From Shewanella oncorhynchi (GTDB lineage Bacteria; Pseudomonadota; Gammaproteobacteria; Enterobacterales; Shewanellaceae): a DNA stretch of 64,000 nt. Each line of letters opens with the position of its first letter. The first letter of the stretch is position 1. Positions 42,323-44,601 of this stretch are shown here, one piece after another. The notes beneath the pieces were generated by a model. That model saw only the letters and a program-made list of their open reading frames with translations. It was not told the origin of the DNA and searched no databases. The stretch is from positions 1 to 64,000 of the forward strand of contig NZ_JABAEB010000001.1 in the NCBI RefSeq assembly GCF_012584455.1, read 5' to 3'. A program made the translations under genes and the position numbers.

Positions 42323-42408
42323 TGGTTGAAAGATTAGAACACTCGGTTTACTTGGCGTTTTAGCGGCTTCATGGCATGTTATGGCTGAGCAATTTTTAAT
42401 TGGAAAAC

Positions 42409-42921
42409 ATGATGATAACTATACGAAAAGCGACGAAACCGGATGCTCAGGCCTGCTGGGATATCCGCAATGCAGCCATCAATAAAGGCTGCGCCGGATT
42501 TTATGATGTGGGCGATCTGATTATTTGGACCGAAGGCGAACTGACCGAGCAATTTAGTCGTATCGTCGATGCACATTTTTATGTGGCAGAGTTGTCCTCT
42601 GACGAGTTGGCGCTTAAGACTGTGGTTGGCACTGCTATGTTGGATGAACCCTATGCCCAGTTAGAAGCCTTGTTTGTTTCCCCCGATGCTATGGGGTTAG
42701 GAGTTGGTAAAGTGCTGCTGCAATTTATTGAAACTATGGCTTTTAATCAGGGGATTGCCCAGCTCAGATTAGAATCAACTTTAAATGCGGTGGATTTCTA
42801 TCGCCACTGTGGTTTTGGTGGTGAGGGTTTAGAGGAGGAATCTATCTACTGTTCGCCCAGAGGAATAGCCTTAGAGTGTATGGTGATGTATAAAAATCTA
42901 GGGCGGTCTTTGGCCTGCTAG
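42409..42921 (+). CDS. GNAT-family N-acetyltransferase
   Basis: Predicted acetyl-CoA-dependent acyltransferase of about 170 residues. The C-terminal half has the acetyl-CoA signature LEALFVSPDAMGLGVGKVLLQF with the R/Q-x-x-G-x-G/A-like loop, then LRLESTLNAVDFYRHCGF. I take ATG 42409 (ATG 42412 is equally possible; a TTG start at 42400 less so). The substrate is unknown. Single gene after the pepB terminator. Confidence 0.82.
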   Translation: MMITIRKATKPDAQACWDIRNAAINKGCAGFYDVGDLIIWTEGELTEQFSRIVDAHFYVAELSSDELALKTVVGTAMLDEPYAQLEALFVSPDAMGLGVGKVLLQFIETMAFNQGIAQLRLESTLNAVDFYRHCGFGGEGLEEESIYCSPRGIALECMVMYKNLGRSLAC

Positions 42922-43140
42922 GGCGCAGTAAAAAACGCTGCTGCTAGAATCTAGGGCGTTGCTTTGCAACTGCTAGAACGCCGCGTTGCGGCTACGGATA
43001 ACGGCACGCAGCAAACTGCTACAGAACGTCACTTTTTGACTTACGATTTATGCAACGGACTTTGCTCTTACGGTGAGCGCAGCGTTCTGTGAGTGAGTTT
43101 ACGAATGTTCTATTTTCCTAGAATCTAAAGCCTAGAACCT
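42922..43140. repeat. Non-coding mosaic of short palindromes after the GNAT gene
   Basis: The interval has several small inverted motifs, such as CTAGAATCTAG and GTTGCTTTGCAAC, and repeated variants of GCTAGAACGC/CGCAGC-like words, with no ORF. It looks like an assembly of degenerate extragenic repeats. Chromosome-wide copies cannot be checked from one window. Confidence 0.4.
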
Positions 43141-43152
43141 ATTTTCTGAGAT

Positions 43153-43580
43153 GTTGTTGACATACTCAAGGAAATCGACAGATCAAGTATGGATGTGGAA
43201 TTAACTTTGAAGATTTAGAGTTTAAGATAAGGTTGCTGACATATTCGAGGGAATCAACAGATCAAGCATAGATGTGGAATTCATTCTTCATAAAAGGTTG
43301 CTGACATACTCAAGGAAATCAACAGATCAAGTATGGATGTGGAATTAACTCTGAAGACTTAAAGTTACGTTAAAAGGTTGCTGACATACTCAAGGGAATC
43401 AAGAGATCAAGCATAGATGTGGAATTCATTCTTCATATAAGGTTGCTGACATACTCAAGGAAATCGACAAATCAAGTATGGATGTGGAATTAACTTATAG
43501 TTTCGTTAAAAAGGTTGCTGACATACTCAAGGAAATCAACAGATCAAGATGGGGGAATTAACTCCCAAGAGTATGCCAAC
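43153..43580. repeat. Array of six 50-bp repeats in two alternating types, ending in an inverted half copy
   Basis: Copies start at 43153, 43232, 43297, 43377, 43442 and 43513 and are 50 bp each (the last 47). Core: GTTGCTGACATACTCAAGG, then AAATC.ACAGATCAAGTATGG, then ATGTGGAATT. Odd copies (1, 3, 5) carry AAGGAAATC and AAGTATGG and continue with AACT; even copies (2, 4) carry GGGAATC and AAGCATAG and continue with CATTCTTCAT. Start-to-start distances alternate 79/65/80/65/71, giving a higher-order unit of 144-145 bp. Odd copies can fold through CATACT and AGTATG. After the last copy, GAGTATG and CCAAC (43569-43580) form an inverted half copy. No ORF runs through it. The unequal spacers are similar to each other, so it is not CRISPR. 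Confidence 0.85.
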
Positions 43581-43713
43581 TATCGTTCTTTCGCCTGAAA
43601 TCCCGATGCCGACAAGATTAGCGCTAGTGGCTTAAATAAAACTTAATCCATTGCAAAAAAAAGACTTTATTTCCTTAGCCTTTAGTCAAACTTACCCGTA
43701 AATCCTCAAGGTT

Positions 43714-44601
43714 TCAGTTCGCCTCTGGGGTATTAAGTTGCTGACGTTTTTCCATCAAATCTTTAATCAAAGGCGTTAGGATCAGCTCCATCGCCAGCGA
43801 CATTTTGCCGCCGGGGACGACGAGTGTGTTGACCCGTGACATAAATGAACCTTGGATCATATTGAGGTAATAGGGGAAGTCGACATTATTGATACCGCGG
43901 AAGCGGATCACCACAAAGCTCTCATCTAAGCTCGGAATATCTTTGGCACTAAATGGGTTAGAAGTATCGACCGTCGGTACTCGCTGAAAGTTAATGTGAG
44001 TGCGGGAGAACTGCGGCGTCATGTGCTTAATATAATCATCCATACTGCGCACAATCGAGCCCATGACTTTTTCACGGCTGTGACCACGTTCCGAAGTATC
44101 GCGGATAATTTTTTGGATCCACTCTAAGTTGACTATGGGGACCATGCCGATCAGCAAGTCCACATGCTGGGCGACATTGGCATCACCAGTAACTACGCCG
44201 CCATGTAAGCCTTCGTAGTAGAGCATATCGGTATTTTCAGGTAGTGGTCGCCATTGAGTAAAAGTGCCGGGCATCTGGTTAAAAGGCACTGCCTCATCGA
44301 AGGTGTGTAAATAGCTGCGGGTTTCACCTTGGCCTGTGGTGCTGTAATCGCGAAAGCATTGTTCTAAACGAGCAAAGTTATTAGCCTCTGGGCCAAAATA
44401 GCTAAGATTGCGGTTTTCAGCTTGGGATTTGCGGATCATGACTTCCATTTCGGCGCGGGTAAAATGATGAAAACTGTCGCCTTCGACAAAGGCGGCGTTG
44501 ATCCCGAGTTGGCGAAAAATATGGCTAAAGGCGGTGGTCGTCGTGGTGGTTCCCGCGCCTGATGAGCCTGTAACTGCAATAATGGGATGTTTTGCTGACA
44601 T
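43714..44601 (-). CDS. prkB: Phosphoribulokinase/uridine kinase-family protein PrkB
   Basis: P-loop kinase-like protein of 295 residues. Walker A is GSSGAGTTTTT near the N terminus, with FVEGDSFHHFTRAEM and YYEGLHGG motifs of the phosphoribulokinase family. The genome segment shows no Calvin-cycle genes, and E. coli yhfW/prkB has no established phosphoribulokinase role, so the true substrate is uncertain. Last gene of yheT-yheU-prkB, 90 bases after yheU. Confidence 0.88.
   Translation of the reverse strand: MSAKHPIIAVTGSSGAGTTTTTTAFSHIFRQLGINAAFVEGDSFHHFTRAEMEVMIRKSQAENRNLSYFGPEANNFARLEQCFRDYSTTGQGETRSYLHTFDEAVPFNQMPGTFTQWRPLPENTDMLYYEGLHGGVVTGDANVAQHVDLLIGMVPIVNLEWIQKIIRDTSERGHSREKVMGSIVRSMDDYIKHMTPQFSRTHINFQRVPTVDTSNPFSAKDIPSLDESFVVIRFRGINNVDFPYYLNMIQGSFMSRVNTLVVPGGKMSLAMELILTPLIKDLMEKRQQLNTPEAN

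Follow-up and report, generated by a model that had tools for sequence, protein, structure and literature searches.

What kind of element is the array of imperfect repeats that lies next to a prkB-like gene in Shewanella oncorhynchi? The array was found in the window, i.e. the whole stretch of 64,000 nucleotides that was analysed, in an interval (42922-43713) whose neighbours are a GNAT-like ORF (plus strand) and a prkB-like ORF (minus strand), and no ORF of at least 80 aa was found between 42921 and 43714. A preliminary description of the array had offered three guesses: a structured RNA array, a protein-binding array or a product of duplication. The first of these gained support from the comparisons below, with the RNA placed on the minus strand, which that description had not read.

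The repeat array beside prkB in S. oncorhynchi

A repeat search of the window located copies at 43153, 43232, 43297, 43377 and 43442, and a sixth copy, in register, starts at 43514, with copy-to-copy spacings of 79, 65, 80, 65 and 72. The six copies with their odd/even differences and an inverted half copy (GAGTATGCCAAC, at about 43574-43585) were seen in the window sequence as first described, and five of the starts agreed, while the sixth falls one base later than the 43513 originally given. CATACT and AGTATG in the odd copies, as well as AGCATA in the even copies, are likewise visible. A 122-nt dimer is present twice, 145 bp apart, with 95% identity, and Tandem Repeats Finder returned 587 for a 145-bp period and 233 for a 65-bp period at a threshold of 50. 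In its own genome the array occupies a single locus (DNA search, E up to 0.001), and the 253 bp beyond it belong to no repeat family of that genome, with one other 38-bp match.

The two-level alternation stressed in the preliminary description is not conserved in the two nearest relatives on a prkB tree, L003 and L005, where unit spacings are 80/79/69/78 and 79/79, respectively; by eye, it was seen in none of the other listed Shewanella arrays. As read from the sequence, the odd/even alternation comes from a two-unit block duplicated in the S. oncorhynchi genome, and this duplication may be neutral. The array had been called unlike CRISPR from the outset. Its repeats are imperfect and spacers are shared between copies; CRISPR was rejected on these grounds, and the five neighbouring ORFs scanned with Pfam included no cas genes.

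The conserved block turned out to be wider than the array. Many genomes matched solely or best at the query's end (window 43522-43590), which comprises the last copy and the inverted half copy. The gene upstream on the same strand (43714..44601, minus; Pfam PF00485, E 3.6e-65) is prkB-like and belongs to the phosphoribulokinase/uridine kinase family. Read on the prkB strand, the 95 loci with a recognised core present the same order of elements, namely a TTAAG-N6-TTAAG box, what by eye resembles a -10 element, UCGGGAUUUCAGGCGAAA and finally a long hairpin.

Structure, strand, box and distribution of the conserved core

In the window, all parts of the predicted RNA lie on the minus strand. The conserved box TTAAGTTTTATTTAAG (43631..43646), with two TTAAG half-sites 11 bp apart, is the proposed activator site; a possible -10 element, TAATCT (43615..43620), was picked by eye and not counted, and the RNA start is guessed to be near 43608. 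Hairpin A (AUCGGGAUUUCAGGCGAAAGAACGAU, 43582..43607) was defined from the alignment, the pair counts and the fold of the window core. Hairpin B (43517..43580) consists of a 12-bp outer stem, a 10-bp inner stem and a 16-nt loop, UCCCCCAUCUUGAUCU (43541..43556), which is almost invariant in the alignment columns and takes its limits from the window-core fold. Hairpin B is the sixth copy together with the inverted half copy; the inverted piece said to cap a truncated last copy is thus present, and it is in fact the 5' arm of this conserved hairpin. Each of the five non-core copies reproduces hairpin B in its inner part, its loop and its 3' arm.

The structure was derived from an alignment, A1, of 85 distinct core sequences out of 95 pattern-recognised loci, ten identical ones having been dropped. 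The cores of L079, L097 and L103 were not recognised by the pattern, and the covariance model R1 later found cores in G055 and G111. RNAalifold gave two hairpins for the 85 cores, with -31.1 kcal/mol in the sense direction (minus strand of the window) against -4.5 in the antisense direction (plus strand), a gap that narrows to -56.8 against -41.9 under RIBOSUM scoring. Cells of the sense structure comprise 1815 Watson-Crick, 519 G-U, 3 A-C and 36 other combinations, although a large share of the G-U cells belongs to pairs in which most or all rows have U.G. Since an A-C would be a G-U on the other strand, this asymmetry favours the minus strand.

In the named structure, 98.0% of 2458 cells are paired and 13 of the 29 pairs show two-sided changes. 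The two-sided cells number 193, against a shuffled mean of 51.8, and none of 500 shuffles reached that figure. Sliding the partner by 1-3 columns left pairing at only 38.5-46.5%, a control that leans towards the structure, which was derived from A1 itself. The covariation is located in hairpin B (helices 3 and 4). The helices of hairpin A are 99.7% and 97.1% paired and show little covariation because they are nearly invariant, and hairpin A appears to be supported mainly by conservation. A conserved structure with covariation, the mark of an sRNA that was sought, was therefore found, with the structure taken from the same alignment. Compensatory changes in other Shewanella, which had been proposed as a sign of function, do occur in orthologous elements across the genus.

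Taken alone, the 105-nt core of the window folds into essentially the consensus structure (z -3.0, with 1 of 200 shuffles as good), and R1 matches the window at 43509-43613 with 116.2 bits (E 9.0e-23). When the 470-nt window RNA is folded as a single sequence, hairpin B persists, while hairpin A and the inner stems of the units do not form. Instead, a CAUACU/AGUAUG hairpin appears in units 1 and 5. The pairing once suggested for these motifs is thus seen in the single-sequence fold for two of the three odd units, yet it is absent from any consensus of 176 units from 48 loci. By eye, the internal loop of hairpin A reads GGA/GAA beside an invariant AGGC loop, which suggests tandem G.A pairs and a possible protein-binding motif.

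The box was found at a fixed distance. The best match to TTAAGNTTNNTTTAAG had no mismatch in 90 of 116 loci, one in 16, two in 8 and three in 2, while random windows of the same loci mostly needed 5-7 mismatches; in 111 of 116 loci the distance from the start of the box to the UCGGG block is 39 or 40 nt. The window half-sites are ATTAAG and TTTAAG, and their first base varies between loci. In a passage of PMC3973317 the Salmonella PmrA box is given as half-sites CTTAAG and XTTAAT five base pairs apart, so that the Shewanella box is close to the Salmonella one, as presented there, in layout and half-site spacing but differs in the half-sites themselves. A generic sigma-70 scan returned no promoter in 42900-43750. 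The candidate RNA is inferred to be transcribed from its own activator-dependent promoter, and the candidate regulator is probably a response regulator of the PmrA/QseB type.

Within its own genome, the window box is the only match to TTAAGNTTNNTTTAAG with no mismatch, and one-mismatch copies elsewhere occur at control frequency (11+9 versus 8+10), so that the regulator is not established by them; a box regulon was rejected on the same count. Two of these copies were noted as leads only, such matches being at control frequency: one (G000:C2:6300-6315) precedes an ORF pair resembling cytochrome b561 and a diheme cytochrome, and the other (G000:C11:34570-34585) is flanked by a crp-like ORF on one side and, on the other, by a small ORF with a QseB-like response regulator, all named by eye. 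Intrinsic terminators were predicted in 15 of 112 loci on the RNA strand, in 24 of 112 on the reverse complement and in 0 of 560 shuffles, with none in the window. No general terminator was found, and the array may not always be part of the RNA.

Of 129 Shewanella genomes, a DNA search recovered the element from 97 and the covariance model the RNA from 118, with one main locus each; three weak second matches (G080, G108 and G116) lie in or beside arrays. Absence from relatives and random divergence, which had been named as signs of a neutral local duplication, were not what was seen, the element being found across the genus. In a draw of 394 genomes from the order, 28 matched the model, all of them among the 30 Shewanella members drawn, and none of the 364 genomes outside the genus did so, in a scan with stricter filters and the 10 best candidates scored per genome, by which a diverged relative could be missed. 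Among the 11 Shewanella genomes without a model match, G025 has a copy that is diverged, and in G058 a box with one mismatch is present but no RNA could be recognised. In the other nine, about 406 nt downstream of prkB were free of a box with up to one mismatch and of any sequence resembling hairpin A; G118, which is among these nine, has a two-mismatch box at a distance of 232 nt. In three sister-genus genomes, neither box nor hairpin A follows prkB.

Of 116 loci, 115 have the 3' end of prkB upstream, at a distance of 35-226 nt; in the remaining one, L102, a contig end cuts the locus off 165 nt before the core. In G025 (G025:C1:2705415-2706271) the prkB match falls into two pieces, residues 1-139 and 140-286, and the RNA beside it is diverged but still recognisable. 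An exact search with the 21-base loop returned 49 stretches in named genomes, 48 of them from Shewanella, and the ANA-3 record contains such a match. The remaining one, in what by eye is a coding stretch of a Bacteroidetes bin, is probably due to chance.

Copy number and conservation of the array units

Five units follow the core on the minus strand of the window, as delimited by an nhmmer profile: unit 1 at 43445..43495, unit 2 at 43380..43428, unit 3 at 43300..43350, unit 4 at 43235..43283 and unit 5 at 43157..43206. Across 116 loci the unit profile counted 1 to 16 copies per locus with the core included, 61 loci being single-copy and 55 having two or more. Seventeen of the single-copy loci had no unit-profile match and were set to one because R1 finds a core there, two overlapping partial matches in L009 were counted as two copies, and numbers are possibly too low where contig ends cut arrays or units have diverged. 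On the prkB tree, built on 240 nt of this one gene, rooted at the midpoint and read without support values, some clades have arrays throughout and others have none. Exceptions are L024 and L061, which have one copy although their neighbours bear arrays, and L017, which has five copies among single-copy neighbours.

The units themselves were analysed in 185 of 205 non-core matches, of which 176 were distinct, from 48 loci. In the RNA sense a unit reads AGUNAAUUCCACAUCCAUGCUUGAUCUGUU... and then continues with the 3' arm of hairpin B. AAUUCC ... UCUGUU is common to core and units, while the units (UUCCACAUCC) lack the core's C-run. Divergence within loci is 0.114 for the inner stem plus loop, 0.18 for the 3' arm and 0.302 for the left spacer; between loci, the corresponding values are 0.212, 0.412 and 0.637. 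RNAalifold found no structure in the unit set (0.0 kcal/mol), with the antisense no worse. In the inner stem of the units, sliding lowers the share of paired cells from 84% in register to 32-45%, and the pair that varies most (columns 14-41) is of a standard type in 83% of cases versus 46% when shuffled (one unit per locus, 48 loci). This stem is rich in A-U and G-U, with 111 A-C beside 398 G-U cells, 151 of these at one closing pair. In the units, then, the conserved stretch may be presented either by weak hairpins or by linear sites.

Pairing of the unit 3' arms with the core 5' arm was compared for 149 units from 42 loci. Standard pairs made up 91% with their own core, 83% with the core of another species and 98% in the core's own stem. 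Such pairing was set aside, as common descent explains these figures equally well. Coding was also considered. Unit spacings that are not multiples of three occur in L023 (64), L065 (62) and the window (67/78/67/77), while L025 (78) and L026 (81, 111 and 117) have multiples of three; in L021 an extra base interrupts a short reading frame that was seen by eye in the core.

Putative function of the RNA and competing explanations

Comparison across the genus showed a favoured strand, a two-hairpin core, a near-invariant loop, a box at a fixed distance and a 3' array of varying copy number. On balance, the feature is probably a noncoding RNA of genus-wide occurrence, whose gene lies directly downstream of prkB on the minus strand and whose loops are putative partner-binding sites. 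It would have a regulatory role and be made when a regulator of the PmrA/QseB type is active, and the exposed loops of core and units (AAUUCC ... UCUGUU) would bind a trans-acting partner, either a protein or another RNA. By multiplying these sites, the array would allow one transcript to titrate or contact several partner molecules in the manner of CsrB. As the C-run is absent from the units, the feature recognised in common would be the two-part stretch rather than an anti-Shine-Dalgarno run.

A reading that overlaps with this one, although a doubtful one, takes the RNA as a base-pairing sRNA: the core loop, rich in C, and the unit loops with their UCC would pair with the purine-rich Shine-Dalgarno regions of a number of mRNAs, and the array, perhaps cut into pieces, would supply extra seed copies. 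It draws on UUCCCCC in the core loop of nearly all A1 rows and on several UCC elements per unit, the opposite strand of 43153-43580 holding 15 GGA against one on the favoured RNA strand. Sites of the form GGGGGAAT-N2-9-ATG numbered 38 versus 16 for the reversed pattern in four genomes, a control that is unfair in that a Shine-Dalgarno sequence naturally precedes ATG. However, 28 of these 38 sites were read (of the other ten, eight were not fetched, one is the RNA's own site and one an overlapping duplicate), and eight of them open ORFs of at least 60 aa, no two of which are alike at E 1e-4, so that a shared anti-Shine-Dalgarno target was rejected. The full loop complement, with up to three mismatches, matched its own locus and, apart from that, a single site within an ORF that is uridine kinase-like by eye; a 10-base complement of the core gave 4 other matches versus 2 in the control, and the unit complement gave 8 outside the array versus 8. 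Antisense targets were discarded, as nothing stood clearly above control outside the RNA's own locus. The complementarity searches thus identified no partner or target, which weakens base pairing, and the loss of the core C-run from the units counts against it as well.

It is unlikely that only the hairpin RNA of the core is functional and that the array is a neutral by-product of slippage, copying part of the hairpin into tolerated repeats. The genome-specific duplication of two units, the nearest unit lying in the same locus for 104 of 168 units, the single-copy loci that manage without an array and the units' want of a consensus fold would all fit such an origin. Yet arrays persist through clades, the loop segment of the units is more conserved than arm and spacer both within and between loci, compensatory pairing is seen at the unit inner stem, and 48 loci from several clades have the altered unit loop (UUCCACAUCCAUG) as their consensus. 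Very little credence is due to a plus-strand RNA that would bind CsrA through GGA motifs as a third Csr sRNA: the array has its 15 GGA and 9 ANGGA on that strand, but the plus-strand fold energy and the G-U/A-C asymmetry are contrary, the conserved box reads on the minus strand and CsrB-like loci lie elsewhere in the genome, and this reading was rejected on the strand tests. Equally improbable is an element acting as DNA, be it an array of protein-binding sites or a mobile element with terminal inverted repeats, as the direct copy and the inverted half copy bounding the array might suggest. Against it stand the one conserved place beside prkB, the pair changes that tolerate G-U on one strand only, and searches in which 43140-43590 had no blastn match at E 1e-5 in plasmid and phage records and the exact 21-base loop none in viral contigs. 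A transposon or MITE was rejected on the single locus in its own genome, the one main locus in genus genomes and the nearly constant position after prkB.

Among known systems, RNAs of the CsrB/CsrC/RsmZ type carry many short loop-motif repeats on one transcript under a two-component system, and the predicted RNA resembles them in its many repeats of a short loop motif on a single transcript. It differs in the shared motif on the predicted RNA strand, AAUUCC...UCUGUU instead of GGA, in the TTAAG box instead of the UvrY box TGTAAGN6CTTACA, and in that no CsrB model match was found at the array locus. Matches of the Rfam CsrB model (E up to 10) in this genome occur only on contigs C12 and C26, and membership of the CsrB/RsmZ family was rejected, neither the GGA motif nor a match to the Rfam model being found at the locus. 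Two CsrB-like loci on C12 (G000:C12:113463-113819 and 114392-114775) reach 55.6 and 58.8 bits, less than the gathering score of 71 of the Rfam CsrB model, and would therefore be missed by a scan at that cut-off. According to a passage of PMC3171408, CsrB1 and CsrB2 of S. oneidensis, which are RNAs of this type, lie at another locus. A scan of 42900-43750 against Rfam 15 returned no match up to E 1. The RNA is not CsrB by motif, promoter or model, nor is it in Rfam 15.

Small RNAs with CU-rich loops are known, with LhrC of Listeria and CcsR of Rhodobacter among those present in multiple copies. Their repeated hairpins with UCC-rich loops recall the Shewanella array, whose repeats differ in being partial copies of one hairpin in one predicted RNA, in a number that varies between species, with no target found. 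Literature searches, made by words and not by sequence, found no description of this RNA. The main text of a study on cis-regulatory RNAs of Shewanella (PMC2659441) mentions neither phosphoribulokinase nor prkB, and that of a study on S. piezotolerans WP3 (PMC5471319) does not mention phosphoribulokinase; the computational set of 209 sRNA candidates in the latter, listed in its supplements, may contain this RNA.

For the preferred reading of a minus-strand RNA with partner-binding loops, it is proposed by analogy that the CsrB principle of a repeated binding loop on one RNA is used here with a different partner. More tentatively, and short of being probable, the RNA could represent a new class, a multivalent RNA under two-component control with an evolvable copy-number dial of 1-16 loop modules, which titrates an RNA-binding protein or sRNA in a way like CsrB-CsrA yet unrelated to it. 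A strongly supported RNA family is added that is absent from Rfam 15 and present in most of the searched Shewanella genomes. Should the loops titrate a partner, the 1-16 copy series over about a hundred species would constitute a natural experiment on how the valency of sponge RNAs evolves, and the loop could be used as bait to find the partner.

The surroundings on the far side of the RNA vary. In the window the neighbour is a GNAT acetyltransferase (42400-42921), while in several single-copy loci, e.g. L055 and L094, a convergent tetratricopeptide-like ORF was noticed by eye and not counted. Tandem heptamer (AGAACCT)n tracts lie just beyond the array, on the 3' side of the RNA, in L008, L020 and L024.
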